Virus record (IMG/VR): IMGVR_UViG_3300036785_000416
Span: 1 to 44,138 of that record
Source: a virus
Length of the DNA: 44,138 nt
Reading direction: 5' to 3' (one strand)
The notes beneath the pieces were generated by a model. The model saw nothing but the letters and a program-made list of their open reading frames with translations, ran no database searches and was not told where the DNA came from. The position numbers and the translations under genes are program-made. Positions 2,211 through 32,501 of this stretch are shown here, one piece after another; within the stretch, counting starts at the first letter, position 1; each line of letters opens with the position of its first letter.

Positions 2211-2414
2211 TCAATGGCACGCGATGACGATGCCGTCCGTGACGGTCGCCCCGGCGATAACGATGCTGACACCGGGCGTGGCTCCGATGATCACACCCTG
2301 CGGGCACACCGGACCGACCGCGCCGCCGGTCGGCATCAGCAGGATAAAGGCGTCCGCCGACATCGACACCAGCAGCACCCCCATCAAAAGAACTAGCGAA
2401 ACGAGACGTTGCAT
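2211..2414 (-). CDS. Small exported or membrane protein, 67 aa
   Basis: ATG 2414 is preceded by GGAG at 7 nt. The N-terminal 25 residues are strongly hydrophobic (LVSLVLLMGVLLVSMSADAF), fitting a signal peptide cleaved after ADA or an anchor. The remainder is also hydrophobic and glycine-rich with two cysteines. The gene starts inside the end of its upstream neighbour (22 nt overlap). It could be a small secreted peptide or a holin-like membrane protein; nothing distinguishes these. Confidence 0.65.
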   Translation of the reverse strand: MQRLVSLVLLMGVLLVSMSADAFILLMPTGGAVGPVCPQGVIIGATPGVSIVIAGATVTDGIVIACH

Positions 2415-3421
2415 CGCCCCGCTCCCGCAGTTATCGGTCCGCCGGTGACCTTAGCGCCGATCCAGTAGTTGGCCGGCACAACAGTAGGTACAGTCGTCAG
2501 CAGGTTCGCGCTCTCGGTCCCCGCTGCCGATGTCACCATGTTAAAGGATGACGATATCGCCGTCCCGGCTCCAATCAACCCACTTGCCGTCTGCTGGTAG
2601 AATTGCATCGAGCCGGCGTTCGACACGACATCGTTCTGGCACCGGATCGCATACACGGTGCGCGGCGTCGCTGTCCGCCCAACACCAAACCCGTTGGTCG
2701 CCGTGCTCAGATCCATCCCCGGCAGCCAAGCAAACGGGAAGTACTGCACCGGACCCATCGGAACGCTCAGCGCGTTGGCCCCACCATTCACGACAAGACT
2801 TTGCGTATCGGCCGGGAACGCCACCGCACCGCCTGCTGCCGTGCTGCCTTCAATCAATCCCGTATTGATTTGATCCACCGCATTTGGCGTCAGTGTGGCC
2901 TGTACCCCCACCGTGGCGAGGTTCACCCCACCCTGGTTGGGCAATGTGCTCACGGCAGGAAACGTCAAATTGCACCCTGCGGCGATGCACACGAAGGTCT
3001 GCCCGTAGGTCCACTCGGCGACGGTCACCGGATGAGCGCCGGAGAGAACCGTGATCCCGCCCGTCACGCCGCCGAGCACAAACCCGGTGCCGGCCGTATT
3101 GACTTGGAGACACTGGTACCCGGTCAGCTCACCGCCGCCCAGCGCCACCAGCCCGGTGGGCACCACTTGCCGCTGAACCGGCAGCGCGGGCAACTTGCCG
3201 TCCACAGAAACCGCGGCGGCACCCGTATTCGGCGTGGTGAAATTGGCGCAGACGATGTCCATCGCGACGTTGTTGAACCCACCACCCGTTGTGACGGTCT
3301 GCGCGTTCGCCGTTCCACCGACAGCAGTAGCCGTGAACAGGTGAGGCCGGCCGGCCACCGCCTGGGCATGGGCGGCCTGCGTCGCCAGACATAGCGCCAA
3401 TGCGAGAGCAAGCAGTTTCAT
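2393..3421 (-). CDS. Secreted protein of unknown function, 342 aa
   Basis: ATG 3421 overlaps the preceding stop as ATGA. A textbook signal peptide (MKLLALALALCLATQAAHAQ) is followed by a long Gly/Ala/Thr/Val-rich beta-type sequence with scattered cysteines. The tail fibre-like gene just upstream and the exported proteins downstream suggest a surface-interaction role. No enzymatic motif was found. The presence of a cleavable signal on a protein encoded among virion genes is unusual. Confidence 0.75.
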   Translation of the reverse strand: MKLLALALALCLATQAAHAQAVAGRPHLFTATAVGGTANAQTVTTGGGFNNVAMDIVCANFTTPNTGAAAVSVDGKLPALPVQRQVVPTGLVALGGGELTGYQCLQVNTAGTGFVLGGVTGGITVLSGAHPVTVAEWTYGQTFVCIAAGCNLTFPAVSTLPNQGGVNLATVGVQATLTPNAVDQINTGLIEGSTAAGGAVAFPADTQSLVVNGGANALSVPMGPVQYFPFAWLPGMDLSTATNGFGVGRTATPRTVYAIRCQNDVVSNAGSMQFYQQTASGLIGAGTAISSSFNMVTSAAGTESANLLTTVPTVVPANYWIGAKVTGGPITAGAGRCNVSFR

Positions 3422-4014
3422 GGGACGGTGTACCACTGAGTAGCCGTCACAGCCACCAAAAGAGCGGTCGTATCGGCCGGCACGATGACGGGAGCATTAG
3501 CAGCCAGCGCGTTGATGGCGGCGCCGGAGGCCGGATACAGCGACAAGGCGCTAGTCAAACTGTTGCGGACATAGTAATGCGCGCCGACCGCTGGCACTGG
3601 AAGCGCCACACCACCACTGCCGAGTGTGACTGCGTTGATCACGGCGGTGAGCCCCGTCGCTCCACCCTGAGTGGTCCCGGCAGCTGTAACTGCAGCATTC
3701 ACGGTATCCGCAGTGGGGGCGCTGGTCGGCGGCGCCTGCCAGCTGCCGTCACCCCGCCAGAACGTCGTATTGCTGGCCCCCACCCCACCAGCGAGATTAG
3801 CCGGCGGCACATTGCCGAGCCCGATCGTGCCACTGGCAGTGATCGTGCCACCAGTCAGCGGCGCCGCTGCGGTGATGCTAGTAACGGTGCCACCGCTTGG
3901 CGCTGCGTTCTGCAGCGCGGTGATCTCGTTATGGGCAGCCAGGAAGTTGGCGCGGACCGACGCCGTTGTCGGAGTGCCGGTCACCGGCATAGTCGGGTCT
4001 ATCGCTGAAGCCAT
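3418..4014 (-). CDS. Tail fibre-like protein, 198 aa
   Basis: The protein contains TTFWRGDGSWQAP near residue 85, matching the F(L/W)RGDG(T/S)W element repeated in many phage tail fibres. It is rich in Ala, Thr, Val and Gly and lacks a signal peptide. The N-terminus (SAIDPTMPVTGTPTTASVRA) resembles the start of other appendage proteins that place a short adapter before a beta-structured shaft. Its stop overlaps the start of the exported 342-aa protein. Role as a fibre or appendage protein is inferred from this motif and position. Confidence 0.7.
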   Translation of the reverse strand: MASAIDPTMPVTGTPTTASVRANFLAAHNEITALQNAAPSGGTVTSITAAAPLTGGTITASGTIGLGNVPPANLAGGVGASNTTFWRGDGSWQAPPTSAPTADTVNAAVTAAGTTQGGATGLTAVINAVTLGSGGVALPVPAVGAHYYVRNSLTSALSLYPASGAAINALAANAPVIVPADTTALLVAVTATQWYTVP

Positions 4015-4023
4015 GCGCCCACC

Positions 4024-4206
4024 TCAATCCCAAACCGAAGCGCCGCCGTCCCACACCGAAGCGCCGCCGTCCCAAACGCTGCCCGTGACCGGTGGAGCGA
4101 GCCCCTCTTGCAGATTAGTCCAGGTGCTCAACGGCACGAACACCGGCACCGGCAGCGTCGGTATGTAGTCCCCACTGGTGTCACTACGAGGTTGTTCTCC
4201 ACTCAT
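4024..4206 (-). CDS. Small protein with a C-terminal SVWDGGA tandem repeat, 60 aa
   Basis: ATG 4206 overlaps the stop of the upstream HNH gene as ATGA. The C-terminus is three near copies of a seven-residue unit (SVWDGGA twice, ending SVWD). The rest is proline-rich. The following gene starts 9 bp downstream. Repeats ending in Trp-Asp are unusual; the protein could be a small appendage linker. The family is not recognised. Confidence 0.6.
   Translation of the reverse strand: MSGEQPRSDTSGDYIPTLPVPVFVPLSTWTNLQEGLAPPVTGSVWDGGASVWDGGASVWD
4029..4077. repeat. 21-bp tandem repeat within the 60-aa gene
   Basis: Two 21-bp units (4029-4049 and 4050-4070) differ at one base, and a partial third unit ends near 4077. 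The unit length is a multiple of three, so copy-number change would add or remove one seven-residue block without a frameshift. Confidence 0.85.
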
Positions 4207-4715
4207 TGCGGGGTGGGTTCCTGGTGGCGCTTGGCGCGTTTCGCCTGCTTGGCAGCCTTGTCGCGCGCGTGCGCCCTCTCGGGGTTCAGCACCCGGTCAC
4301 GGCGTGCTCGGGCTGCCATACAGGCGCGGCAGACCCGTTCTTGTCCGCTCCGGCGGTAGATCACCAGGGTGTTCTCGGCATTGAACTCGTGACCGTTGAC
4401 ACAGTGACTTTTCCTGCGTCCTGTGTTTGAACCACGCCTTGTATTCTCCTTGTGCGTCACCGGCTCCATGTGGAGTGGATTGATGCAACGCCGGTTCTTG
4501 CACGTGTGGTCCAGCTGCAATCCTTCTGGTATTGGTCCAATCAGCATCATGTAGAGCACACGATGGGCTCTAGTGGTACCATAATGGGTACGTTGATCCG
4601 AGACAGCATAGCCATCGCGATCGAGGTACCCCTGCCATTCCCAGCACCCGTTTTCAGTGGGTAGGCATTTCGCAACCAAGTGTTTATAGGTTATCGAGGG
4701 AGGTCCACTAGTCAT
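4203..4715 (-). CDS. HNH homing endonuclease, free-standing
   Basis: 170 residues from ATG 4715. An N-terminal GCWEWQGYLDRDGY motif (about residues 23-36) is followed by an HNH core LDHTCKNRRCINPLHMEPVT and a C-terminal zinc-ribbon-like part with CVNGHEF and VCRACM. These are hallmarks of the phage HNH_3 family of nicking or cutting endonucleases. It sits 16 bp after the connector gene and overlaps the next ORF. The ribosome site is weak. It resembles the HNH at 7303-7782 in architecture. The probable role is mobility at the head-tail gene junction. Confidence 0.93.
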   Translation of the reverse strand: MTSGPPSITYKHLVAKCLPTENGCWEWQGYLDRDGYAVSDQRTHYGTTRAHRVLYMMLIGPIPEGLQLDHTCKNRRCINPLHMEPVTHKENTRRGSNTGRRKSHCVNGHEFNAENTLVIYRRSGQERVCRACMAARARRDRVLNPERAHARDKAAKQAKRAKRHQEPTPQ

Positions 4716-4731
4716 TGCCGTTTCTACAACC

Positions 4732-5496
4732 CTATGGAGAGTACTTAACCCATGGGCTCGCCCAATAGGGGCCAACCTCCGCACTCGCGATCGACGGCAC
4801 ATCCCGACTGATCTCGATATCGGGCCTCGTATCATCCCGCTCGATCGCCTCATCGAGCTGTTCCTTCGCCAGCGCCTCGAAGTACGCCGCCCGATCGGCA
4901 CGCCCCAATGTCTTGAAGAAATACGCGAGCGCATAGTTGATCAACACATCGTCCTTATTCTCGAAGTCGCTGACTTGATCCTCGCTGGCGGGATCAAACG
5001 GTGTCGGGTACTGCGTAAACGACAACATCGCAGTGAACTGCAGGAACGGCGCCGGCACCATCGTGATGATGTTCCCGAACCGCTTATAGATGCTCGGCCA
5101 TCCCGGCGGTAGCCACTCCGGCGCCGGGTACTTCTGGTCGAACCACCGCCACGGCTTCTCCACGACCTTCCGCGACTGCCCCAAGGAGCCAATGGCTCCG
5201 GTTGGCGGCGGCGTCCCCGGCACCGGCTGCGAGCTGGTATCCAGCACTACGAACGAGTGGATCGTCTTCGTCCTCGGTGGCGGTATCAAATACTTGTCCA
5301 CCGCTGCATTCCTGGTGAAGTTCATCTGCGCGAACCCGATCTCCGACAGCTCGCTGAAGTCGTACGCCCTCGTGATCCGGCTCTGCGCCAAGTTCAGCAC
5401 CCGCGTGATCCGCACATCGGGGATATCACTGGGACTGCGATTGCCCAGCGCCGACCTCACCTCGTCTCTCAGATCCTCCTGTGCGAGAACCCCCAC
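4732..5496 (-). CDS. Head-to-tail connector/adaptor protein, 254 aa
   Basis: Starts at GTG 5496 with GGAG about 10 nt upstream. The N-terminal helical part (LRDEVRSALGNRSPSDIPDV, then NLAQSRITRAYDF) is typical of podovirus tail accessory or adaptor proteins that seal the portal. A central part carries a PAPEWLPPGWPSIYKRFG segment and a C-terminal acidic helix. Its position after the capsid genes supports this role. The sequence around the start forms a hairpin (5497-5519). Assignment is by pattern and position only. Confidence 0.7.
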   Translation of the reverse strand: MGVLAQEDLRDEVRSALGNRSPSDIPDVRITRVLNLAQSRITRAYDFSELSEIGFAQMNFTRNAAVDKYLIPPPRTKTIHSFVVLDTSSQPVPGTPPPTGAIGSLGQSRKVVEKPWRWFDQKYPAPEWLPPGWPSIYKRFGNIITMVPAPFLQFTAMLSFTQYPTPFDPASEDQVSDFENKDDVLINYALAYFFKTLGRADRAAYFEALAKEQLDEAIERDDTRPDIEISRDVPSIASAEVGPYWASPWVKYSP

Positions 5497-6319: not shown

Positions 6320-7309
6320 CTAATTGGTGTTGATGGTGTCGAGCACGCCGAGCACCCGTCTTCGGCTTGTGACAAACGAGCACGCCAATTCGACTTGCGC
6401 GGCCTTGTCGTTGGGCTGATTGGGGATCGCCTTCCACTCCGTCATGTCGAAGAAGTACATCGGATCATAGTGAAATTCGATGAACCTCGTATTCAGGAAG
6501 TACATCCTCTGCACCATGCTCGGCGTCCAGACCATCGGTATCCCTTTGAACGTCTGGTTCTGGAACCCCGCATCCGCCAAGCGCGTGTTGGTGATCCGCA
6601 GCATCGGCAGCACCGTGTCCTCGTACTGCTCGTACGAGTTCATGTCGCTCACGATGATATCCGGCTGATCCATCGCCCTATTGTTCATGCACAAATTCAG
6701 CAGATGCCGCATATTCGAGATCCCATACACCGCGAACGACTGGCCCGCCATCCCGATCGCCTGGCTCTGCCACCACGTATACACGCTCGGATCAATCCCA
6801 CCCGCATTGAACGCCGGGCTCGCCACATTGGCGCTGTCGGGCACCATGAACTGCAACCCGTCGAACGACGGCGCCGGCAAATTAGCAGCGCCCGAGCCCC
6901 CGGTCAGCGTCGTCTCCAGATTGGTGATCAAGCTCTCCTCGGTATTATTGAGCTTTGCATTGACCCAGTTGATGATCTGCGCATCCCCCGAGTTCTGCTG
7001 CTCGTCCACCCCGTACCGCATGACGTTGGCCACGAGGTAGCGCCACTGGTACTGGCCCACCGTCAAGAACCGGAAGTCACTCAGATCCACCGTGCCGCCC
7101 CGGCTGATCCATTGCACCGTCGTGTTCGTTCCGTACTCCAGATTGACTTCGAGGAACCGGCCCCCTCGGGTCGAGCGGAGCTTGCCTCGGTCCTTCAGCC
7201 AAAACCAGAATGGTGTCGCACTAAAGATGTTATCAAAAACCCCAGGCAACCTCTTCTGCCAGGTCGTCGTGTAAAGGTCGTCCAGGGCTTGGGTAAAACT
7301 ATTTACCAT
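6320..7309 (-). CDS. Major capsid protein
   Basis: 329 residues. ATG 7309 has a strong GGGGGAG ribosome site at 7 nt. Segments such as VNSFTQALDDLYTTTWQKRL at the start, WISRGGTVDLSDFRFLTVG and YQWRYLVANVMRYGVDEQQN are typical of an HK97-fold capsid subunit family common in environmental podoviruses. The C-terminus includes KAAQVELACSFVTSRRRVLG. It follows the scaffold, with an HNH gene between them that overlaps its start by 7 bp. Function is assigned from recognised sequence pattern, length and synteny. Confidence 0.9.
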   Translation of the reverse strand: MVNSFTQALDDLYTTTWQKRLPGVFDNIFSATPFWFWLKDRGKLRSTRGGRFLEVNLEYGTNTTVQWISRGGTVDLSDFRFLTVGQYQWRYLVANVMRYGVDEQQNSGDAQIINWVNAKLNNTEESLITNLETTLTGGSGAANLPAPSFDGLQFMVPDSANVASPAFNAGGIDPSVYTWWQSQAIGMAGQSFAVYGISNMRHLLNLCMNNRAMDQPDIIVSDMNSYEQYEDTVLPMLRITNTRLADAGFQNQTFKGIPMVWTPSMVQRMYFLNTRFIEFHYDPMYFFDMTEWKAIPNQPNDKAAQVELACSFVTSRRRVLGVLDTINTN

Positions 7310-7782
7310 TGTTTATCTCCCCCAAAAAGTGTATCGAGATCCACACCACCACTTTCAGCCTCTTTCAAGCGCTGATAGCGTGCCTTGTCTCGATCACTAG
7401 CGCACTTCTTACACATGCGCTTCCCGACGTATGTGTAGTAGCTCCCCTCGACGTAGGGATGGCCTCTAGAACACTCGGTCGCCTTGATCGCCGCATAGGC
7501 CCGACGCATATTCTCGGTACGCGTCACCAGTTCCAAATGTTCCGGGTTAATGCACGTCCGGTTTCGGCAAAGATGGTCGATTTGCATCTCTCGCGGGACC
7601 GCACCGTACATCAAGATGTACATGACCCTGTGAACCACGCGGGCACCAGTCTGGTTAGGCGACACATACCCGTACCCAGTACTGTCCTTCGCTCCCTGCC
7701 AGATCAAGCAGCCATCCTGGTCAGCGACGGTTCTAGCTCGCAGGTAGGGTATAGTATAGAGTATCCTATCTCCGGGTTTCAT
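7303..7782 (-). CDS. HNH homing endonuclease inserted before the capsid gene
   Basis: 159 residues with DGCLIWQGAKDSTGYGY near residue 23 and an HNH core IDHLCRNRTCINPEHLELVT. A C-terminal treble-clef-like part has CSRGHPY and CKKCASDRDKARYQ. It lies between scaffold and capsid genes and its last codons overlap the capsid start, so the insertion keeps capsid translation coupled to upstream translation. Insertion beside a conserved capsid gene is common for such free-standing elements. Confidence 0.93.
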   Translation of the reverse strand: MKPGDRILYTIPYLRARTVADQDGCLIWQGAKDSTGYGYVSPNQTGARVVHRVMYILMYGAVPREMQIDHLCRNRTCINPEHLELVTRTENMRRAYAAIKATECSRGHPYVEGSYYTYVGKRMCKKCASDRDKARYQRLKEAESGGVDLDTLFGGDKQW

Positions 7783-7786
7783 TCAC

Positions 7787-8476
7787 TCACAACTCCGACA
7801 AGGCTGGCAGTATTCCGGGATGTCTAGCCATAACTTCCTCGTAGGCCGCCCTGGTTGCTGCTTCGCCGGTGAGACGGGGCTCCGCCGCCTTCCCATTGCT
7901 CGGCGTTAAGCCGCCAAACGGTCGAGGCTTCGGAGGTGGAGGATTATACTTCGTATCCAGTTGTCCCGCCTTCGCCGGGTTGTTGGCCCTCGCCAACCTG
8001 TACACGTCTTGGAAGCCAAGGGTCGGATGCTGCTTCGCCAGCCCGATCATCTCGTCCTTCCAGTCCGCGAAATCCTTGTGCTGCGCCCTCAGATCCTTCA
8101 AGTCGAGGGTTGCGCGTGTCGTCACGACGTCGTTCTGCACAGTCGACATCTGGCGCACCACCGGGTCGAGCGCCTCCTTGATCGACTGCTGCACCATCGA
8201 TTGCAGGCTGCTTGTCGTATACGCGACCAACTCTGCATTCGACATCGTATCGAAGTCAGGCGCCACAGGCGCCGCCGGTTGCGGAGTGACGACCTCGCGG
8301 ATGGTGTCGAGCCTCGACCCCAGCGAGTTGTTGAGCTTGTCCAACCCGTCGACGAACTCTCGCCAATTCGGCGTCGGCACCGCGCCCGGCCCGGCGGTGT
8401 CGTTGCCGCCGCTCACCTCATTCGGGTTCTCGCCACTCGGAACGCCGCCAGTATTCTCGACGTGGTCTTCGCTCAT
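7787..8476 (-). CDS. Capsid scaffold protein
   Basis: 229 residues, acidic N-terminus (MSEDHVENTGGVPSGENPNE), then a long helical middle with coiled-coil-like spacing (FVDGLDKLNNSLGSRLDTIR; LQSMVQQSIKEALDPVVRQM) and a Pro-rich linker near residue 180. No cysteine or signal peptide. It lies between the portal region and the capsid gene, the standard position for scaffolds. The start overlaps the preceding stop as ATGA. Scaffolds diverge strongly, so the call rests on composition and position. Confidence 0.8.
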   Translation of the reverse strand: MSEDHVENTGGVPSGENPNEVSGGNDTAGPGAVPTPNWREFVDGLDKLNNSLGSRLDTIREVVTPQPAAPVAPDFDTMSNAELVAYTTSSLQSMVQQSIKEALDPVVRQMSTVQNDVVTTRATLDLKDLRAQHKDFADWKDEMIGLAKQHPTLGFQDVYRLARANNPAKAGQLDTKYNPPPPKPRPFGGLTPSNGKAAEPRLTGEAATRAAYEEVMARHPGILPALSEL

Positions 8477-9405: not shown

Positions 9406-10107
9406 CTATTGCAGCTGACGGCGCCGATACCACAGACCCATGCCGATCAGCGCGCCGCCGATCAGCGCCAGGCTCGACGGCTCCGGCACCGCTTGGCTGA
9501 CCGTGTCGGTGATCGCCGTCACCACCGCATTGGCACCGGTCGTGATCGTCTCGTTGACAGCCAAGCTCGAAACAAAGCCCGCGAACACATGGTCCTGGGG
9601 GCACGTCCCTCCCGAGGGGTTGACGGTCCTATTGCAGCTGAACATGAAACTGTCTGCGCTGGTGGTGCCGGTCAGCGTGGCGCTGGCAGGCGCCAACACA
9701 TCACTAGCGTTCAGCGTAAAGTCCTTCTCCAAATCATGGATCAGCAGACCGTTGCTCAGCAGCGGGTCGACTGCGACATCGTAGTTGATGCTGCCGGTCA
9801 AACTCGGACCGAGCGGCGTTCCCTGAAAGCCGATGGTCACATTGCCGGGCGTCATGGCGAAGAGCCAGTTGGCGCTGCCGGCCCCCGTGATCCCACCTCC
9901 AACCGAGAAGCCGCCCCAAATCTTGTCGCCCGTCTCCACACAATTGCCCGAACTCGCGGAGCCAGTGAGCAGGAACGACCCTGGCACGCTGCCCCCACTC
10001 GCCACCACCTGCGTCGTCCCAGTACAAAAGCTCGGAGCGGCTGACGCCGCTCCAGCTACCAGCACCAGCACACCACTCACAACACCCAGCAACATCAACC
10101 TACGCAT
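9406..10107 (-). CDS. PEP-CTERM (exosortase-sorted) exported protein
   Basis: 233 residues from ATG 10107, which has GAGGT 7 nt upstream. The N-terminus (MRRLMLLGVVSGVLVLVAGA) is a Sec signal peptide. The body is Gly/Ser/Thr-rich and low in charge with a few cysteines. The C-terminus is a complete PEP-CTERM signal: VPEPSSLALIGGALIGMGLW then YRRR, that is the PEP motif, a membrane-spanning stretch and an Arg cluster. In bacteria such proteins are processed by exosortase and placed in the envelope or extracellular matrix. No exosortase was seen here, so a host enzyme would be needed. A phage gene for this is unexpected. Confidence 0.9.
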   Translation of the reverse strand: MRRLMLLGVVSGVLVLVAGAASAAPSFCTGTTQVVASGGSVPGSFLLTGSASSGNCVETGDKIWGGFSVGGGITGAGSANWLFAMTPGNVTIGFQGTPLGPSLTGSINYDVAVDPLLSNGLLIHDLEKDFTLNASDVLAPASATLTGTTSADSFMFSCNRTVNPSGGTCPQDHVFAGFVSSLAVNETITTGANAVVTAITDTVSQAVPEPSSLALIGGALIGMGLWYRRRQLQ

Positions 10108-10111
10108 CTCG

Positions 10112-10351
10112 CTACCTCTCTCTGTTGCACGATTTGGCGACGGCGCGTTCGACCTCTTCTTCGGTTTCGCGCACACCAAAGGTTTTTCCGGTCGCAGTGT
10201 AAACGATAGTCCCTGTGCCCTTTGCGACGTGGTCGACCCAACCAGGCCCCGCTTTCAGGACGTAAATCGCCGCACTTTCGATCCAAAGCAAGCTCCCATC
10301 GCTGCTGTGGAGCAGGACCAAGCACACAACAGGCAAGATCCTGCTCCACAT
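10112..10351 (-). CDS. Small protein with hydrophobic N-terminus, 79 aa
   Basis: ATG 10351 begins 9 bp after the previous stop. The N-terminus (MWSRILPVVCLVLLHSSDGS) is hydrophobic and may be a signal or anchor. The remainder has IYVLKAGPGWVDHVAKG, GTIVYTATGKTFGVRETEEE and a charged end, giving a beta-rich fold followed by a helix. The pattern 'TGKTF-x-VRET-EEV' is reminiscent of short FlbD-like proteins, but this is not enough for an assignment. Confidence 0.6.
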   Translation of the reverse strand: MWSRILPVVCLVLLHSSDGSLLWIESAAIYVLKAGPGWVDHVAKGTGTIVYTATGKTFGVRETEEEVERAVAKSCNRER

Positions 10352-10360
10352 TCACTTATC

Positions 10361-10765
10361 TTAGCTGCTTGGCGTCGGGTGCGGCAACTCGGGTGTGATA
10401 ATGCCCACGACCGTCCACCCCTCCGTAGGGGTCCACGCCGTCTTCCACACGACCCTGTTGGCATCTGGCGGCGGTTCTACCGGTGGCAACGGTGGAATAT
10501 AGATCGGCGGGGTTGCGTACCCTGGCCACGGCGCATCCCCACCCCAAGTGCCAAGCGGCGGCACTGGCGCCCCACCACCGGGCGGATTGGGCCACACAAC
10601 CGGCGGAATGGGATGGCTCACCCACGGTGGAGGCCCCCCGGGCATCGGTCCGCCACCCACACCCAACCCCGTCAGCGACGCATCGCCGATCAACACCACC
10701 TGCTGAGTAGTCCGATTAAGCTTGTCATAGAGCACACCGCTGATCGTTACTTCTACTGCCGCCAC
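10361..10765 (-). CDS. Proline/glycine-rich protein, 134 aa
   Basis: GTG 10765 is chosen since GAGGT lies 7 nt upstream; an upstream ATG at 10810 has weaker support. The protein begins VAAVEVTISGVLYDKLNRTT, then becomes rich in Pro and Gly with many tryptophans (PGGPPPWVSH, PPVVWPNPPG), ending with a WTPTEGWTVVGIITPEL stretch. It lies just after the portal gene. Extended Pro-rich segments occur in virion proteins, but no function is known. Confidence 0.65.
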   Translation of the reverse strand: MAAVEVTISGVLYDKLNRTTQQVVLIGDASLTGLGVGGGPMPGGPPPWVSHPIPPVVWPNPPGGGAPVPPLGTWGGDAPWPGYATPPIYIPPLPPVEPPPDANRVVWKTAWTPTEGWTVVGIITPELPHPTPSS

Positions 10766-10792
10766 GTTGGACCTCGCTTCGCTCGGCCCAAC
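10766..10792 (-). repeat. Loop-core hairpin at GTG start
   Basis: Arms 10766-10773 and 10785-10792 pair over 8 positions with one G-T, enclosing TCGCTTCGCTC. The hairpin directly precedes the GTG start of the proline-rich gene and includes its GAGGT ribosome site. Confidence 0.75.
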
Positions 10793-10807
10793 GGAATTGT
10801 CGAGCCG

Positions 10808-10830
10808 CATGGTTCGCTACGCTCACCATG
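10808..10830 (-). repeat. Loop-core hairpin between portal and next gene
   Basis: Six-bp arms CATGGT and ACCATG surround core TCGCTACGCTC, 15 bp downstream of the portal stop. Confidence 0.75.
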
Positions 10831-10844
10831 AGCGTAATCGCTAT

Positions 10845-12614
10845 TCATCGTCTACCTGGACCCGGCACAAGATTTTGCACCGGGGTCGGCCTCGCTCCAC
10901 CTTGACCGCCACCAGCTCCACCACGCTGGCCCATCATCTGCGCCGCCTGCGCAAACGCCATCGGGTTCTGCTGGCTCGCACCGGGCTGGTTGGGATTGAC
11001 CAGCAGATGCGACGCATCCACCCCGTACATCTCATTCGCCAAAAAGCGTCTCAGCGCCATCTGATCGATCAGCGGATCGTTGTTCCACAACTGGAACAGC
11101 GCCATCGCCCGCTGCTCCCGCACCTGCTTCGTCAACGGTATCGAGGTGTCGGGATCGATCTTGATGTCATAGTCCAGATCTTGGATCAGCGCCGGCTGGA
11201 ACTGCACCCACAGTGGCAGGCCCTCCGGGCCTGCCACTTGTGCTACCATATCAGTGTCCCACCGCTCCGCGATGATGTGGTTCATGTCGCTGACCAGATA
11301 CGTCAACAGATCCGCGCACGCATCCCGCCTCTCGTCGATGCGGATCATGGTGGCTTGGTTGACGATATTCGCCTCCGTCGCGCTCCTATCAGCGGAGCCG
11401 GGCGCATATTCCCCGAACTGGTTGACGCCCATCCCCAGCAGCTCCTGAACTTCCCTATCGATGAACGCATCCATCTCCGGCAACGCCGTAGGCATTGGCG
11501 GCGCCTGGAACTCCTTCACCGCCGTCATCGATTTGACGCCAACCGCCACCCCGCTGTTGTCGTCCGCAGTCAGCTTCGACAGCTCATCCGGCGAAATCGC
11601 CCCGATCTCGTACAGCAGCTTGCACAACGAGATGCGCCGATGATACATCATCTGCGTCCGCACCTCGTTCTTCTCCATCTGCTGCGGCTCTAGGATCATA
11701 CTGTCCGGTATACCCCAAAACACCTCGTCGTCAGTATTGAAGCACAACGGATAGAAGTTTATACGCCTCTTAATCTGCAGATCATCCACCTCCCGGAACA
11801 ACACCTTCTTGTCCACGCTCGCATTGCTGTCGGGCGCCATCACGAACACCAGCCCACTCTTCTTATCACGAATTTCCCACAGTCGAATGCCCTCCACGTT
11901 CTTCTGGTACGGGCTCCCCTTCGCCAACAAGCTCGGGTGCTCACCCCACCGGCCCAGCATACCCTGCTTCAGATCCTGCTTGTTTTCAAAGCGAGGATCG
12001 TCGAGCACGTCGTCGATGGGTCGCACGCACTCGTAGCACACCCACCGAGCACTGTGGATATCAGTGCAATGAGCAGGCACCACGAAATTAGCGGGATGAG
12101 CAGCCAAAGCCCAAGGCGCGTTGGGATGAACCAGATCATTATATTCAACACGTCGCTGCAATCTCCTCCCCCCCGCATCCGGATCACTCGTCGAAAGCGG
12201 CTCCGGCGTCGGCGTGAACTCCGCCCCGTAGCCAAGTCTTATCCCAGCCGTTCCGAACATCGTGCTCCACTGCACCGCCCGCTTCATCTGCTCCTTGATG
12301 CCCATTGCGTCCAGCAGTGTGTTGTCGACGCGCTCGATCAGCTTCGCAAGTAATTGCATCTCAGGCCCCGGCTTTTTTGAAGTAATCGAAACACTAGGAT
12401 TTCTAAAATAAACACGCGGGATCAACGTCCGCACCATCTTAAAGTAAACATTCGAGGGCAGTATGCCTTTCCTCCACTCCCCCCGATACCACCTCCTCCA
12501 ATCCTGCCACCGGTCCTCCCGTGCGTACTCCCGCCTAAACTGCTTCCCCCTCTGCACCTCGTTGATCCACCACTGCGGAACGATGCTGCCCTTGTCGGTA
12601 TAACCGTCAGCCAT
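10845..12614 (-). CDS. Portal protein
   Basis: 589 residues. The N-terminal region ([20 protein letters not shown] then [13 protein letters not shown]), followed by [20 protein letters not shown] and a long helical C-terminal domain with [19 protein letters not shown], is typical of podovirus-like portals. The C-terminus is Gln/Gly-rich. Portals form the dodecameric gate for DNA. It is preceded by the large terminase, ATP-grasp and HAD genes and overlaps the HAD gene by 8 bp. No truncation is seen. Confidence 0.9.
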
Positions 12615-13011
12615 TCCGACTATTCCATGGTTTGAACTTCAACAGCTTCTCCGGCCACCACGCATCGTCATGCCAATCACCGTTAAAAGTCAGTGCCCGA
12701 TCGTCGATCGTGAGGAACGCCGCCGGCTTCTCGTACGCAAACTCAAGCTCGGTCATCGAGCGATCATTCGGGAACCCACTTGCTTCGCGCCACATGGAAC
12801 GCTGCTTGTGCAACCACAGCGCCATCTCAATGCTGCCCGCTTCAGTCTTGGAACGAGATGAGTAAACAACAAGCCGAAAGTGCTCCTTAGCCACCTCCAC
12901 CCACTCAAAGAACCCCGGCAAGACCGTCCCGTAGATCTCGCCGCCCTGCCATCCCCGCTCATAGCTGTGGATGACCCCGTCGAAGTCGATGCACAATGTC
13001 GGCTTAGCCAT
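12607..13011 (-). CDS. HAD-like phosphatase, 134 aa
   Basis: ATG 13011. The first HAD motif is complete ([12 protein letters not shown], DxDG near residue 8), followed by [13 protein letters not shown] as motif II and [15 protein letters not shown] as the acidic motif IV. A lysine (EKPAAF) occupies the motif III region. The length fits small phage-type HAD hydrolases that lack a large cap. Substrates could be nucleotides or polynucleotide ends; no kinase domain is present. The start codon is within a hairpin stem (13009-13035). It overlaps the portal start by 8 bp. Confidence 0.85.
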
Positions 13012-13035
13012 GCGTGTCGCTCCGCTCCACGCATG
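13009..13035 (-). repeat. Loop-core hairpin covering the HAD start codon
   Basis: Eight-bp perfect arms (13009-13016 and 13028-13035) enclose core TCGCTCCGCTC. The ATG of the HAD gene (13011-13009) is in one arm. Confidence 0.8.
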
Positions 13036-13048
13036 CTCCAATAATGAT

Positions 13049-13080: not shown

Positions 13081-14385
13081 TCATTCGAGCCAGCCCCACT
13101 TCTTCAACTGCGCCACGTCTCGATTGACCCGCTCTCCAATGTCGTCCCGGTACTGCTTTCCGTCCACCTCGATACCCTCAATAGTACGGTAGACCCTTCG
13201 GCGCGCTTCGTAAGTATAATCCGGCTTATACCGCCGTCCATCAGGCGCCTGCTTATCTCTCTCAACACGGCCGATCGCCGTCGCCTTGAAGAGTAGTCCA
13301 TCAGCACCACCGGTTCGATATCGTCCATCCTCATCCCTCATTACATCGCACAGAAACAGGTGGTGCAACCTCGGCTCCTCGATACCCATGATCGGCTCCC
13401 CCCGCCAGCCTTCGGCTGGCACGTCGGGGTTCCTGAACGGATACGGCGGGATCGACACCCGCACTGCAATCATCACATCGTCCGTGAGCGGCATAGACCG
13501 AGCGACGCCAGCAGCTACGTCGGCGAAGAACGCTCCCGCCGGCTCCTCCAATCCTTCCAGCAGAGCCTCGACAGCATCAAATCCCATTCGGCTGGTCGCC
13601 TCCAGCGCATACGCCTGGTCTTCAGTGACGATCGCGTTCACGTCGAACGGTCCCCGATACCCGATCATCCGCAGCAGATCGCCCATCGGCTCCACCGTTT
13701 TGCGGGTCAGTCGATCCCCCTTCCCCGCGCCGATCACCACGTTCCCCATACACCCCGTGTTGCAACCCACCCCGCCGCTCATGAACCGCTTCTCCTCGAA
13801 CGTGTGGTTGAACGGCACGATCCAATCCCTTCCATTGAACCAGCCCTCCGTCGACACCTCGACGCCACTCACAACGCGCTGGATAATGCCAGTCGCATCC
13901 TGGGGGAGCTTTCCAGTCTGATGGTCCCATAGCGCCTCATCCTTCACCACTCTTGTCGTCGCAACGTCTCCGACGTCACTCTTCATGACCCACCCCGCGC
14001 CCCACGTGCCCTTCGGGCACGTCTTAGCTTCGGCGCGTCCTTTGAACGGGATCGTCTCGGGCACCGTCAAGCCCGCCCGCTCGAACATTTCCATGCCCAT
14101 CTGCCGGTCCCCCTCGATCTTGTCGAGGAGACTGCAGAACCCAATATACGGCCGATCCGCTTCGCGGATCGCTTCCTCGAACCTGCCAAATCCCACACAA
14201 TCGCACAGTATCACATCCGCGCTTCGCGCAGCTCTCTCCCAGCCCAGCGGCCGGTTGACGATGCCCCGACCCACCCTGGCGTACCGCTTCTCCTGTATCC
14301 ACAGATCGACCTCATTGCCCTCGTGCGCCAGCCGCTGCGCCACCCCCGCTCCATCTCCCCCTTTCGACATGATCAAGAAACGCAT
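13081..14385 (-). CDS. ATP-grasp enzyme (PurD-like)
   Basis: 434 residues from ATG 14385, which overlaps the terminase stop as TGATG. An N-terminal Rossmann-like part (MRFLIMSKGGDGAGVAQRLA) is followed by an ATP-grasp fold with IGFCSLLDKIEGDRQMGMEM, WVMKSDVGDVATT and GIIQRVVSGVEVSTEGWFNG, and a metal-binding end FDVNAIVTEDQAYALEATSR. Architecture resembles phosphoribosylamine-glycine ligase (PurD), but ATP-grasp carboxylate-amine ligases for other substrates share it. It sits between large terminase and portal, a surprising location for a purine enzyme. Ligation of an amino or carboxyl group to a nucleotide or protein is possible; the substrate is unknown. Confidence 0.8.
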   Translation of the reverse strand: MRFLIMSKGGDGAGVAQRLAHEGNEVDLWIQEKRYARVGRGIVNRPLGWERAARSADVILCDCVGFGRFEEAIREADRPYIGFCSLLDKIEGDRQMGMEMFERAGLTVPETIPFKGRAEAKTCPKGTWGAGWVMKSDVGDVATTRVVKDEALWDHQTGKLPQDATGIIQRVVSGVEVSTEGWFNGRDWIVPFNHTFEEKRFMSGGVGCNTGCMGNVVIGAGKGDRLTRKTVEPMGDLLRMIGYRGPFDVNAIVTEDQAYALEATSRMGFDAVEALLEGLEEPAGAFFADVAAGVARSMPLTDDVMIAVRVSIPPYPFRNPDVPAEGWRGEPIMGIEEPRLHHLFLCDVMRDEDGRYRTGGADGLLFKATAIGRVERDKQAPDGRRYKPDYTYEARRRVYRTIEGIEVDGKQYRDDIGERVNRDVAQLKKWGWLE

Positions 14386-15959
14386 CACCCAAATCGTTCT
14401 GGCCTCAAGGCCACCCGTTCGCGCACCTGCTGCTCCCCGAACAACGCATCCCAGCTGAATGGATCGCTTGTCGCTTCGCTCCAAGCGGCTTCATCCACTG
14501 CAGTGAGGATTTGGGCGCGTTCGATCACCGCCAATGCATGAACCATTGCCATCACCCGGTCGTCGAAGCACCCGCTCTCCGCCTCGATCTTCCCGTTCTC
14601 CTTCTCCACGAACGTCCCCAATTCCGACCGTAGCCCCTCACTATGAATGATGGCTTCGCCAGCAAGAAGCCTCCTCGCCGTCCCCAGCAGCAGCCCCCGG
14701 TTACCCTCGGTAACCAGCGTGCCGTAGTGCTCCAGCCGGCTGATGATATATTGCACGCTATCGGCGCCTCGCGATCCCTTGTGCAACAGGTGCAACGGAT
14801 ACGTCTCGGTGAGACGCTTGAGCGTCACACGGCCGTGATTATTGCGCTCCACGTTTATGTACGCTCCGTTAAAGCGTTGGCCGAGACTGTGTAAAACCTC
14901 GCCGAACTCGTGGGGCTCCCGGTATCCACTAGCCCATTCGGCGACCTGCTCCAAAGATTGGAGGCATACAACTTGGGCGACCGAGTTGTCTCCCCCAACA
15001 CCCCCTGAAACATCTGCACCCACCACGTACCGGAGCCCTGGCATAGGGTGGGGCTGAAGCACTCGTAACTCTCGACTTTCACGTGTCCAGCTAGTGCTAG
15101 AGCTGAAGCGGACATGCCGGAAGAACGAGAACCCCGTCGATTGGAAGCACTCGTCGAAGCTCGTCGGATGCTCTTGTCTGAACGCACGCAGATCCCCCTC
15201 GAAATCGACCTCTAGACGCTCTCGCCTCCATTGTAGAAACTCCGGGCTAACGCCCGTCGTTTCTACAAGCTGGGGCTCCTCCAGCTCCTCGCTGAGGTTT
15301 GCCATGAAGTGCTCGCGCTCGCTGTCAGACCCGAAAGGGATGACATTGTCGGACATCCCCTGACTGGGGAAGAAGAACAGTTGAAATCCTCGTCCCTCGC
15401 GGGCACGCACGCACTGCCGATGATACCAATTGCCAACACCATTCCCAGTGCTCTCCACCACGATCTCGCCGTGCTCTGCGGCTGGGAATATTCCCTTCGT
15501 GAACTCCTCCGGGTTCTCATAGAACGCCGCCTCACTCAAATGCAAATCGGTGATGTTGTCGCCCCGCCCGAACCTTCGGGCGCCCGCTGTGCCGATCCAC
15601 AACGACGAGCCCGTCTTTAGGAACGTGATCGCCTTCACACTGTCCGTGCCCAGCATCGGTTTCAAGGCGCCCTTGAGGTTGTTGAGAATGAACCTGGCGC
15701 GCCCGAGAAGGCGCGCCGAAGCATCCGTCTCGTGGCTGACGATGACGCATCGCCGGTTCTCCTCCGCCAAGCATTTGGCGACATACCGCGCCAACACGTA
15801 GCTCGATACCCCCGCACCCTGCCGGCCCTTCGGGATGATGTTCCGCCTGCCAAAGTTTTCATCCAGTACCACCTGCTGCGGCTTCAACTTGAAATCAACC
15901 GTCTCCGCCGCCCGATCGACGATCTGGAACATCGCCTCGATAAGCTGGCGATACTGCAT
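14385..15959 (-). CDS. terL: Terminase large subunit
   Basis: 524 residues from ATG 15959, which shares a base with the previous stop. Motifs: a Walker A-like IIPKGRQGAGVSS at about residues 41-53, Walker B ITDLHLSEAAFYEN, and nuclease elements RYVVGADVSGG, YINVERNNHG and FDDRVMAMVHALAV. It powers packaging and cuts concatemers with the portal. The upstream extension of the frame is rejected because it overlaps the previous gene and lacks motif content. Several palindromes lie inside the coding region (14465-14487, 15231-15268). The subtype (headful or site-specific) cannot be read from the sequence. Confidence 0.93.
   Translation of the reverse strand: MQYRQLIEAMFQIVDRAAETVDFKLKPQQVVLDENFGRRNIIPKGRQGAGVSSYVLARYVAKCLAEENRRCVIVSHETDASARLLGRARFILNNLKGALKPMLGTDSVKAITFLKTGSSLWIGTAGARRFGRGDNITDLHLSEAAFYENPEEFTKGIFPAAEHGEIVVESTGNGVGNWYHRQCVRAREGRGFQLFFFPSQGMSDNVIPFGSDSEREHFMANLSEELEEPQLVETTGVSPEFLQWRRERLEVDFEGDLRAFRQEHPTSFDECFQSTGFSFFRHVRFSSSTSWTRESRELRVLQPHPMPGLRYVVGADVSGGVGGDNSVAQVVCLQSLEQVAEWASGYREPHEFGEVLHSLGQRFNGAYINVERNNHGRVTLKRLTETYPLHLLHKGSRGADSVQYIISRLEHYGTLVTEGNRGLLLGTARRLLAGEAIIHSEGLRSELGTFVEKENGKIEAESGCFDDRVMAMVHALAVIERAQILTAVDEAAWSEATSDPFSWDALFGEQQVRERVALRPERFG
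14465..14487 (-). repeat. Loop-core hairpin inside terL
   Basis: Perfect 6-bp arms CGCTTG and CAAGCG flank core TCGCTTCGCTC near the 3' end of terL. Confidence 0.75.
15231..15268 (-). repeat. Composite palindrome inside terL
   Basis: Ten-bp perfect arms (15231-15240, 15259-15268) enclose a smaller hairpin CGGGC-TAAC-GCCCG at 15243-15256. Related GGGC-T(A/T)AC-GCCC cores occur at 27022-27035 and 33073-33092. Confidence 0.8.
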
Positions 15960-17863
15960 CAGATCGTCTCGCACCGGTAAGCGATAGCGTATTGATTGCC
16001 TGCCACCAGCGCCGACGCTTGAGCCCACTGGATCTGGAAAGCAGGCATGGTTGTAGGCTGCGAAAACAGTGACACGGGGAACACCCAGTTCCCCCCCGTG
16101 GGTGTCAGCTGGCAAGCCAGCGTATTGGTCGGCTTCACCGGGAACGTCAGCGGCACAAACCCGTTGCTGCCCGGCGTTCCAGCTGGGGACAGGAGTATCA
16201 CACCCACCGTAGCGCCCGATCCCGGCTGCAACGCAGCAGAGCCTGTACCCAGCCCGGTGCCGGCCCCAATCGCCATAGCCACGTTGGTGAGCATCCCTGC
16301 GGAGCCCGGCCCCGCTTGATAGCCAGCCGCATACAGATTGGCGCCGGGCGACTGGTCAGTCACCAGCGACGCCACGTAGATCCCGTTCGAGACAGTGTTC
16401 GACAAGATCGGAACCGTAGTCGTGCCGAAGTACGGGACCACACTGCCGTGAACCTGCTGCAAGTTCGCGTAGTTGGCGTTTATCGAGGAGCCGGGGTTGA
16501 GAGCATCAACCGCGTACCCCGCTACTCCGCCGACGATCAGCTCGCCAACGATCATCACACCCGGCGCACTGGCGTTCCCCAACGCGACGGCGTCGCCGCC
16601 GCTGCAGCAAACCTGCAGGTAGCCGATATACGAGACCGCACCCCCCGACAGATCCAGCACCCCGGTGTTGGTCTGATTGGTGAAGATTTGATTGGCGAAG
16701 ATCGCCACCCCATAGTCGATCTGGACGGCTATCGTACTGCCAAACCCGCACGCGCTGCCGACGTGATCCGCCCAGATCGTCCCAATAAGGGCCTCATTCT
16801 TGAATTCGAAGTCGGTCGCATAACCAAGCACACCGATATCATCCAGCGACACCCCAGCCGCCCCGAGCGGAGTGCCGGCGACCCGCACTCCCGTGCCGGC
16901 TCGCACCGCCGCCGTGCACGCCGGCCCAGCAGTGAACATTATCTGCGCCTTGATATCCTGGGCAAAGCCGCGATCGGTGTTGCCGACATCCAGCTCCACT
17001 GCCGCCTTCGACACCCCGTTGCAGTCGGTATAGAGACGCTGCAGCCAGGGCCGCTTACCAGTGATGTAGACACAAGTATCGAACCCACCGATCACGCTGT
17101 CGGTCACTGCGAAATCCGCGAACCCGCCATCCGATACCGCCAACCCCACGAAAGCCGACGAGTTGGTCGACGGCAGCGGCATCCCATTGCGGTAGATCAA
17201 GCAGTTCCTGATGCCGGCACCTTCCCCGGCGGCTGCGATCGTGTGGCTGCTATCCAGTCGCAGTGCCGGCATCGTCGCGAAGGCAGCGGGGTTCTCGGCC
17301 TGGTTCTTGAAGGTCCAACCACAGTCCAGCGTCGTGTTGGCCGGGATCGACACGTTCCCGAGCAGCAGCAACTTCCCACCGGCATCCACCGTGCAGACCC
17401 CACCCGGCCCCACGCTGGTCAGACAGGTGTCGAGAGAGCCCGTCGCGTCCGCCGTCCCGGTCAGATCCCCACCGAATTGGGACACGAACTTGCCGGAGCC
17501 CCCGCCGGTCCCGATGCTGTTGAGCAGAAACCAGTTGGCCCCATTGTTGCTCAACATTGCCCGGAACCCGCTGAACAGCTGCCCTATCGCCAACGGCAGC
17601 CCGCCATTCTGCTGGATGACCTGAGCGGTGCCGCCGGGGAACGCGATGGTCGGCGCACCCGTAGTATTGGCGTAGCTCATCGTCAATATCAGCAGCGTGG
17701 TCGTCGGCACGCACGGCAGTGTCGGTATCGTAATGGCATCCCCGGTGCCACCCGCCACGGCATTCGTCACGCACTGCGACGGCGGTGGTGCCTGTGCCTC
17801 GCTTCGTGTCGCTACGCTCCACGAAATCGGCAGCAGCAGCAACCCAACGAGAAGCACACGCAT
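15959..17863 (-). CDS. Exported beta-helix-like protein, 634 aa
   Basis: ATG 17863 begins a Sec signal peptide (MRVLLVGLLLLPISWSVATR, cleaved near SEAQA). A Gly-rich beta-solenoid-like region follows, with VCTVDAGGKLLLLGNVSIPA and NTTLDCGWTF as in right-handed beta-helix proteins, and a C-terminal domain with CQLTPTGGNW. Ten or so cysteines could form disulfides after export. It follows a tailspike gene and precedes terL. It could be a pectate-lyase-like polysaccharide-binding or -cleaving protein. A cleavable signal is unexpected for a tailspike. Confidence 0.75.
   Translation of the reverse strand: MRVLLVGLLLLPISWSVATRSEAQAPPPSQCVTNAVAGGTGDAITIPTLPCVPTTTLLILTMSYANTTGAPTIAFPGGTAQVIQQNGGLPLAIGQLFSGFRAMLSNNGANWFLLNSIGTGGGSGKFVSQFGGDLTGTADATGSLDTCLTSVGPGGVCTVDAGGKLLLLGNVSIPANTTLDCGWTFKNQAENPAAFATMPALRLDSSHTIAAAGEGAGIRNCLIYRNGMPLPSTNSSAFVGLAVSDGGFADFAVTDSVIGGFDTCVYITGKRPWLQRLYTDCNGVSKAAVELDVGNTDRGFAQDIKAQIMFTAGPACTAAVRAGTGVRVAGTPLGAAGVSLDDIGVLGYATDFEFKNEALIGTIWADHVGSACGFGSTIAVQIDYGVAIFANQIFTNQTNTGVLDLSGGAVSYIGYLQVCCSGGDAVALGNASAPGVMIVGELIVGGVAGYAVDALNPGSSINANYANLQQVHGSVVPYFGTTTVPILSNTVSNGIYVASLVTDQSPGANLYAAGYQAGPGSAGMLTNVAMAIGAGTGLGTGSAALQPGSGATVGVILLSPAGTPGSNGFVPLTFPVKPTNTLACQLTPTGGNWVFPVSLFSQPTTMPAFQIQWAQASALVAGNQYAIAYRCETI
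17803..17825 (-). repeat. Loop-core hairpin in signal-peptide codons
   Basis: Perfect 6-bp arms TTCGTG and CACGAA surround core TCGCTACGCTC, which encodes part of the signal peptide of the 634-aa protein. Confidence 0.75.
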
Positions 17864-17864
17864 G

Positions 17865-17887
17865 ATGATCTCGCTTCGCTCGATCAT
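17865..17887 (-). repeat. Loop-core hairpin 2 bp from the 634-aa start
   Basis: Perfect 6-bp arms ATGATC and GATCAT with core TCGCTTCGCTC. One arm contains the tailspike stop codon; the other abuts the next ATG. Confidence 0.8.
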
Positions 17888-28167: not shown

Positions 28168-29880
28168 GTGACTGGGCAGTGGATCGAAGAAGGAGATCCA
28201 AACTCACCTTTATACATTGTCGGCGAAGCCCCCGGCGAGCGCGAGGTCGCCCAGCGCCGCCCCTTCGTCGGCCCCTCCGGCCAGCTCCTCGACAGCTGCC
28301 TGCGCGAAGCCGGCCTATATCGCCGCGACTGTTTCCTCACCAACATCTGCCATGTGCGGCCCCCCACTTACCGGGACAAACACAACCGGAGAATAGACAA
28401 TGACATCGACCAGTTCTTCGCCACCGCTACTCAAGCAAAGCGAGAGGGTATCCCTCTCCATCTCAGCCGCTATCCCCGTGAACCGATCACGGCCGGCCTC
28501 GCTCGACTACAAACCCTTATCGGACAGCATCGCCCTCGCCTTATCATCGCTATGGGCAACACAGGGCTGTGGGGACTGGTCGGCGAAACTGGTATTACCA
28601 AATGGCGAGGTAGTACGTTTCTCGGGAAAACGGGAACACGAACAATCGCAACCTTTCACCCCGCTGATTGTCTCGCAAACAGAAGCCCCCACCACCGACC
28701 AATACTCGTTCATGACCTCACTCGCGCCCGACGAGAGCTAGACCACCCCAGCGAGCCCCCGCAATGGCGCTTTGTCGTCGCTCCGCTCCGACAAGACGTA
28801 AGAGACTGGCTTGGCGTCTTGGCCGAAGGCCAGCCATTGACTTGCGACATCGAGACCCGCAACGGCCAAGTCGCCTGTCTCGGGCTCGCAAGCTCGCCCG
28901 AGACAGCACTCTGCATCCCCTTCATGAGAGCGCAACCCGGCGACAATGGGCACTCCTACTGGAGCCTAGACGACGAGTGCCACATCGTCGCTTTACTCCA
29001 ACAAATCCTCTCCACACACCCGACCACGTGGCACAATGGCTTATTCGATTGCCAGTACCTCGCCCGCCAATGGGCCTTCGGCCCATGCTACCACGATGAC
29101 ACGATGGTGATGCAGCATGTCGCGTTCCCTGGCCTCCTGGGTGGAAAGATTGACCCAGTCAGCGGGCGCACCGATAAAAGAGGCAGCTCTCTCTCACTTA
29201 GTTTCATCGCCTCTCTCTACTGTCGCCATTACCGTCATTGGAAAGATGACGGACGGCTCTTCGATCCATCTCAACATGATGAGGGACAACTCTGGTCGTA
29301 TAACTGTGAGGACGCTTGTCGTACCCACGAATGCAAGACGGCCCTTCGGGCCGTGCTGGAGCGTGCCGACCTGATCGACCAATATCGCTTCGAGATGTCG
29401 TGCATCCCACTCACGCTCCGAATGATGTGGCGCGGGCTCGCCGTCGCCCACGATGAAATGAAGGCCCAACACGCCGCCATCCTCACCGAGAAGTATGAAA
29501 CCGGCATCTGGCTCGACATCGCCACCGGCTGCGACTTCAACCCCGAAAGCACCCCGCAAATGCGCGCTCTCTTCTACAACGACTTGGCGCTGCCCACCCG
29601 TCTCGACAAGCACACCCGCCAGCCCTCCCTCAAGGACCACGACCTCACCCAGATCACTCGCCAGTGGCCCCTGACCCGCCCACTTATCGAGAAGATCCAG
29701 CTGTTTCGCACCCTCGACACCATCAAGGACAGTGTCGATCCCGCTTGTCTCTCCCCCGATGGCCGCCTGCGCACTGCCCTCAACCCCGCCTATGTCGAGA
29801 CATTCCGCTTCAGCTCGAACGAAACCGCCTTCGGCGAAGGTCACAATTTACAGAATATAGCGCGACCACCGGAGGACTAA
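28168..29880 (+). CDS. UDG/3'-5' exonuclease/polymerase thumb fusion (split DNA polymerase, part 1)
   Basis: 570 residues from GTG 28168 (GGAG 8 nt upstream). Residues ~10-190 are a family-4 uracil-DNA glycosylase domain: GEAPGEREVAQRRPFVGPSG at 19-38 and TFHPA near 162. Residues ~215-400 are a DnaQ-type exonuclease: CDIET (D227, E229), HNGLFD (N290, D294) and YNCED (Y378, D382). Residues ~400-564 match the family-A thumb to the LQNI motif at 561-564. The palm is absent; the ORF stops seven residues later and palm and fingers are encoded separately at 32498-33235. UDG-like domains are known on some phage polymerases. Splitting at this point is unusual. Confidence 0.93.
   Translation: MTGQWIEEGDPNSPLYIVGEAPGEREVAQRRPFVGPSGQLLDSCLREAGLYRRDCFLTNICHVRPPTYRDKHNRRIDNDIDQFFATATQAKREGIPLHLSRYPREPITAGLARLQTLIGQHRPRLIIAMGNTGLWGLVGETGITKWRGSTFLGKTGTRTIATFHPADCLANRSPHHRPILVHDLTRARRELDHPSEPPQWRFVVAPLRQDVRDWLGVLAEGQPLTCDIETRNGQVACLGLASSPETALCIPFMRAQPGDNGHSYWSLDDECHIVALLQQILSTHPTTWHNGLFDCQYLARQWAFGPCYHDDTMVMQHVAFPGLLGGKIDPVSGRTDKRGSSLSLSFIASLYCRHYRHWKDDGRLFDPSQHDEGQLWSYNCEDACRTHECKTALRAVLERADLIDQYRFEMSCIPLTLRMMWRGLAVAHDEMKAQHAAILTEKYETGIWLDIATGCDFNPESTPQMRALFYNDLALPTRLDKHTRQPSLKDHDLTQITRQWPLTRPLIEKIQLFRTLDTIKDSVDPACLSPDGRLRTALNPAYVETFRFSSNETAFGEGHNLQNIARPPED
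28772..28794 (+). repeat. Loop-core hairpin in polymerase coding
   Basis: Six-bp perfect arms TTGTCG and CGACAA with core TCGCTCCGCTC. Confidence 0.7.
29070..29086. repeat. TTC-loop palindrome in polymerase coding
   Basis: ATGGGCC-TTC-GGCCCAT. A second copy type, ACGGCCC-TTC-GGGCCGT, lies at 29338-29354 in the same gene. Confidence 0.65.
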
Positions 29881-32309: not shown

Positions 32310-32501
32310 ATGACCGAGTTGACTGCTGATCGCTTCATCGTATCCAGCAAGGAACTTGCCGAGTTATGGCAAGTCTACGGCATCGACGAAAGAGACGCGG
32401 GCAAAGACATAACCCTCCACGAATTCGACTTCATCCGACTGATGGTATCCCTCTATATAGCGAGAGGCATGGTACCACCACCAATCACATGGGCGCGATG
32501 A
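32310..32501 (+). CDS. Unknown protein, 63 aa
   Basis: Helical protein (DRFIVSSKELAELWQVYGID) with an acidic middle and a Pro-rich end. Its stop overlaps the palm gene start as ATGA, so the polymerase part 2 is likely coupled to it. It might help the two polymerase parts associate, but there is no direct evidence. Confidence 0.6.
   Translation: MTELTADRFIVSSKELAELWQVYGIDERDAGKDITLHEFDFIRLMVSLYIARGMVPPPITWAR

Follow-up and report, generated by a model that had tools for sequence, protein, structure and literature searches.

A PEP-CTERM protein encoded among the late genes of a soil-type phage, and its counterparts in other environmental phages

Introduction

Does a phage gene that ends in the sorting signal of PEP-CTERM proteins encode a substrate for the exosortase of the host, and what could such a protein do during infection? 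Exosortase substrates are exported by Sec and held by a helix at the C-terminus, and exosortase processes them (PMC1569441; PMC12188702). In bacteria, PEP-CTERM proteins attach EPS to cells (PMC9850573; PMC12188702). The gene analyzed here is located in an IMG/VR virus record from a soil-type phage, all 44,138 bp of which were used (the window). A preliminary description, made from the DNA letters, had presented it as a single phage gene that might use the host sorting machinery.

Results

The PEP-CTERM gene and its product

The gene occupies positions 9406..10107 on the minus strand, with the ATG at 10107 and the stop at 9406, and encodes a protein of 233 aa (P0001). The N-terminus, MRRLMLLGVVSGVLVLVAGAASA, has a hydrophobic core after a basic n-region, followed by A-X-A; inspection and a hydropathy rule both identified a Sec-type signal, and residues 1-24 (MRRLMLLGVVSGVLVLVAGAASAA; 10036..10107) were assigned to it by inspection. 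The ectodomain (residues 25-205; 9493..10035) is followed by the PEP-CTERM sorting domain (residues 206-231; 9415..9492), which consists of the VPEP motif, a membrane helix, and an Arg cluster. The complete domain reads VPEPSSLALIGGALIGMGLWYRRRQ, and the C-terminus of the protein is VPEPSSLALIGGALIGMGLWYRRRQLQ. Both profiles for this domain matched above their cut-offs: PF07589 at residues 206-230 (E 2.9e-6, 27.6 bits; gathering score 20.7) and TIGR02595 from NCBIfam (score 23, cut-off 16). A scan of the entire record returned this one PEP-CTERM only. Between signal and tail there is no further membrane span, AlphaFold2 placing beta strands throughout residues 32-206. The Sec signal, PEP motif, membrane span, and Arg cluster of the preliminary description were borne out, as were its coordinates. 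Judged by sequence, P0001 is a PEP-CTERM protein, and as such a putative exosortase substrate.

Two other identities were considered and rejected. A superinfection-exclusion lipoprotein would have a lipobox with an acylated cysteine after the signal; L-[AS]-[GA]-C was not found in P0001, where the region reads LVAGAASAAPSFC. Membership in floc_PepA (NF033554) was rejected at a curated cut-off of 80 bits, against which P0001 scored 27.2 and family A, the largest of the ectodomain families described below, 44.4. The PADLOC anti-phage defence profiles had no match to P0001.

Gene neighborhood in the window

The PEP-CTERM gene sits between the portal and major capsid genes, all on the minus strand. 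In the direction of transcription, the genes for the terminase large subunit (14385..16115; phrog_2, E 8.6e-25) and the portal protein (10845..12614; phrog_12082, E 1.4e-5, and phrog_156, E 6.1e-5) are followed by those for a 149-aa protein (10361..10810) and a 79-aa ORF (10112..10351), the PEP-CTERM gene, a putative scaffold gene (7787..8476), and the major capsid gene (6320..7309; phrog_9953, E 3.7e-37). The order portal, PEP-CTERM gene, scaffold is the one first proposed; the scaffold, assigned from position and composition only, had no PHROG match. The stop of the 79-aa ORF is located 4 nt ahead of the ATG of the PEP-CTERM gene, and the end of this ORF contains a ribosome-binding-like AGAGAGAGG shortly before that ATG, as expected for a coupled late operon.

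A separate contig from a related strain (IMGVR_UViG_3300036828_000784; L001/L033) has the same gene order. Its DNA is 91% identical to the window in the TerL gene, 98.8% in the portal gene, 97% in the gene for the 149-aa protein, and 100% in the PEP-CTERM gene. The GC3 of the PEP-CTERM gene (0.77) is similar to that of its neighbors (0.70-0.78).

The complete identity of positions 9406-10107 to positions 13211-13912 of L033, although the terminases differ by 9%, hints at a recent exchange of this segment. Sec-signal-like N-termini (e.g., MRVLLVGLLLLPISWSVATRSEAQA) were also seen on four more genes of the late (minus) strand, at 911-1675, 1672-2307, 2393-3436, and 15959-17887, none with a Pfam or PHROGs match; the phage may therefore export several proteins. 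In L010-L012, the PEP-CTERM gene is followed directly by a relative of 911-1675 with 33% identity. Between terminase and portal, the minus strand encodes a possible ATP-grasp enzyme (13081-14484; weak GARS_C match) and a protein that appears HAD-like by inspection (12607-13041), and two HNH homing-type endonucleases are encoded within the head/tail module (4203-4934 and 7303-7782, minus strand). On the plus strand, 28168-29880 and 32366-33235 encode a uracil-DNA glycosylase/DNA polymerase A fusion, in which the polymerase match breaks at profile position 132 and picks up at 140 in another ORF at a distance of 2.5 kb. Other ORFs occupy the insert, and a search against Rfam detected no intron. 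A search for tRNAs as a clue to the host found none.

Homologs of P0001

Three search rounds found 13 IMG/VR loci that encode homologs of P0001 and represent six or more phage lineages. L001 is near-identical; the other homologs are about 42-54% identical to P0001 over the best segment. Every homolog retains the VPEP motif, a hydrophobic helix, and a basic end, which settles the preliminary question of whether relatives keep the motif. Because homologs this divergent retain it, the PEP-CTERM tail is no chance C-terminus. In three near-identical contigs the domain scored 17.9, under the curated cut-off, yet it is plainly intact. The dN/dS ratios of close pairs were 0.10-0.17; dS was near saturation for more distant pairs. 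As judged from these comparisons, the tail is conserved under purifying selection across unrelated phages.

The lineages that carry homologs differ in packaging or structural genes, and the lineage of the window is an additional one. They comprise an HK97-type phage with a phrog_9 TerL, in which the PEP-CTERM gene directly follows the head-tail connector region (L002/3/6/7); a capsid lineage like that of Myxococcus Mx8 and a Bradyrhizobium phage (L010-012); a Pan3/Pam5-like lineage (L013/014); a phage with an ejection protein (L004/005); the portal_b lineage (L136); and a methyltransferase-bearing fragment (L015).

A tblastn search with P0001 against GenBank phages and plasmids found no homolog, nor did searches of GenBank phages with three other members as queries. 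The lone GenBank match, at E 0.2, was antisense to an RNA-phage polymerase and was rejected. Scans of 84,980 prokaryote species genomes with two alignments found no relative of the P0001 family at the sensitivity used; these scans rest on short conserved peptides and may miss distant relatives, and families A and B were outside them. The same scan method recovered viral members down to 42% identity.

PEP-CTERM proteins across environmental phages

A degenerate DNA motif (VPEPxxL..LLG..LLG) matched 26 viral stretches, and the C-terminal tail was PEP-CTERM-like in each. A second motif matched 117 viral stretches, and 66 of 73 matches in newly fetched loci had a proper tail. As a control, the pattern shifted by one base matched 20 stretches, versus 117 for the in-frame pattern, and none of the 20 had a hydrophobic PEP-CTERM tail. 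The motif scans yielded about 90 viral loci beyond those of the P0001 homologs. Dereplication at 90% left 55-56 phage PEP-CTERM proteins in 15-16 ectodomain families, nine of which are singletons. The hydropathy rule identified SP-like N-termini in 81 of 87 full-length proteins. A Pfam check of 31 records found PEP-CTERM in every one, with two copies in three records, and exosortase (PF09721) in none of these 31. The records with two PEP-CTERM genes include L073, G015 (L030), G020 (L036), and G029 (L045). The search of other viral genomes proposed in the preliminary description thus found many unrelated environmental phages with such a gene; its framing as one odd gene gives way to one of many (about 55 non-redundant proteins).

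Hallmark genes were recognized in 56 of the 95 loci with a set of 21 queries that had largely been annotated by PHROGs; the remaining 39 loci are without a hallmark gene for this limited query set, and many contigs are fragments. The hallmark matches fell on the strand of the PEP-CTERM gene in 86 cases and on the opposite strand in seven. Among the 18 non-redundant loci in which TerL, portal, or MCP was recognized, 16 had every such match on the strand of the PEP-CTERM gene. The position of this gene varies: it lies ahead of TerL, in the portal-capsid interval, or past the capsid gene, and comes as near as 24 bp to portal or TerL (L075, L098, L142, and L029).

The same portal lineage can carry different ectodomain families: A, B, and C in the portal_a lineage, and A, B, C, and E in the portal_b lineage. 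The cultured Pseudanabaena phage Pan3 (ON968454) is related to the portal_a lineage, its portal being 43% identical over 71% of the portal of L014 (L014/L131 lineage). In Pan3, the portal gene is followed within about 1.1 kb by a small gene, a gene in the scaffold position, and the capsid gene; no PEP-CTERM gene was found in this portal-to-capsid interval or in the 12 kb scanned. Given the varied families per portal lineage and the absence in Pan3, the slot resembles a moron-like accessory site of the late module whose content can be exchanged.

Predicted structures

AlphaFold2, given an alignment of eight sequences, predicted a beta sandwich for the ectodomain of P0001, with confidence at about residues 120-205 (pLDDT about 90 at residues 120-200), and a C-terminal helix at residues 211-232. 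The model for family A, which has no BLAST kinship to P0001, is beta-rich as well and also ends in a helix. The fold neighbors of P0001 were at background level (best Z 7.9 for 8okh, CBM61 7.0, Fbs1 6.4) and otherwise included TNF-like lectins and further jelly rolls; those of family A were beta barrels, again at background level (best Z 8.4). Since these matches are generic and establish no function, glycan binding is only suggested. A sequence comparison to the PDB gave a weak match to an S-layer protein (E 0.032).

Discussion

The PEP-CTERM tail is complete, conserved, and recurrent, and the phages that carry it have no exosortase; host sorting is therefore the natural reading, and processing would depend on the exosortase of the host. 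This part of the preliminary proposal is strengthened; we infer the presence of a host exosortase, processing by it, and the surface location and role of P0001. We put the probability that P0001 is a functional phage-encoded substrate of the host exosortase at roughly 0.7. P0001 would be expressed together with the late, head-assembly genes and exported by Sec, and its VPEP-helix-Arg tail would hold it in the host inner membrane. The host exosortase would then recognize the tail, and the beta-sandwich ectodomain would reach the cell surface or matrix, by display or release.

The phage proteins resemble the bacterial PEP-CTERM proteins of the exosortase (EpsH/XrtA) system in their signal peptide, VPEP motif, membrane helix, and basic C-terminus, and P0001 shares with them a divergent ectodomain without known homologs (PMC1569441). 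In contrast to the bacterial system, the phage genes number one or two per record, are located in the late module, and have no exosortase in the same genome; at the sensitivity used, no member of the P0001 ectodomain family turned up outside viral contigs. Phages are also a source of envelope proteins of another kind. Llp of phage T5 is a phage surface lipoprotein comparable to Ltp. Like P0001, whose surface exposure is presumed, Ltp of the S. thermophilus phage TP-J34 is phage-encoded, exported, and found at the host envelope (PMC3952083). However, Ltp and Llp are lipid-anchored and belong to the lysogeny or early module, whereas P0001 has no lipobox, carries PEP-CTERM sorting, and lies in the late module.

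The late placement of the gene points to a role near the end of infection, and we commit to a probable surface-layer function at that stage. What this function is can be proposed only tentatively. The displayed domain may bind polysaccharide of the surface or matrix and keep progeny from being lost to the already infected cell, its debris, or its matrix. Of the roles weighed, such receptor occlusion is the likeliest, though at less than even odds and only narrowly ahead of a PepA-like role in which polysaccharide and cells are retained or aggregated. The latter is possible but less likely than not: the protein would tie polysaccharide to cells, and infected cells would clump so that progeny meet new hosts, or a lysogen would gain a biofilm trait, the export route being the same as in receptor occlusion and the purpose different. 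The phage proteins are like PepA of Zoogloea and Aquincola in size and architecture, family A weakly matches floc_PepA beyond the tail (profile positions 133-260), and EPS shifts from soluble to bound when PepA is overexpressed (PMC9850573). Nevertheless, PepA is a host chromosomal gene and the phage proteins score far under its curated cut-off; the late position also suggests a lytic-stage rather than a lysogenic role.

An improbable alternative to receptor occlusion is that P0001 acts as an exosortase decoy, a flood of substrate starving the PEP-CTERM proteins of the host, loosening the EPS coat, and aiding lysis or release. Late and, from the gene position, probably high expression would suit a decoy, and because the tail is conserved while the ectodomains swap, the tail may be the working part; yet ectodomains of about 150-230 residues under purifying selection would be superfluous. 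It is equally hard to credit that the phages merely captured these genes from hosts and gain nothing from them. The mosaic distribution and the nine singletons among 15 families would fit mere passengers, but the P0001 family persists in six phage lineages at 42-54% identity, without a cellular relative in the genome scans, and dN/dS is low, tails are intact, and placement is operonic, beside portal or TerL. A virion protein, in or on the particle with the hydrophobic tail as a membrane or fiber anchor, is very unlikely: the gene lies among head genes and generic beta-sandwich folds are frequent in virion proteins, but the Sec signal would take P0001 out of the cytoplasm, where heads are assembled, and the tail is recognizably a PEP-CTERM and not just any helix. 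The chance of a misassembled or contaminating bacterial fragment, which the preliminary description named as what would undo its reading, is negligible even though PEP-CTERM is otherwise known from bacteria; read coverage aside, it is contradicted by the identical gene order in the related contig, the neighbor-like GC3, the operon overlap, and the homologs within late modules of other phages, and on this sequence evidence the locus is phage and misassembly is ruled out.

In the open-access literature we found no description of phage-borne PEP-CTERM proteins; most subscription papers and bioRxiv were outside the scope of this search. The sorting domain itself has been described before; that phages recurrently carry it is seemingly unreported there, which does not prove it unpublished.

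PEP-CTERM/exosortase sorting has hitherto been treated as a bacterial matrix-building system. The many unrelated phages with PEP-CTERM proteins suggest that the surface-sorting machinery of the host is borrowed late in infection. We give even odds to the broader proposition that many lineages of environmental tailed phages share an as yet undescribed strategy, in which an exchangeable late slot holds PEP-CTERM proteins and the host exosortase is used to remodel or shield the infected cell at its surface or matrix. Should such substrates indeed come from phages of numerous lineages, this sorting would be a pathway that phages exploit. PEP-CTERM would then also serve as a marker for host prediction, because hosts must have exosortase, and the phage proteins would be natural probes of the surface action of a poorly understood pathway.
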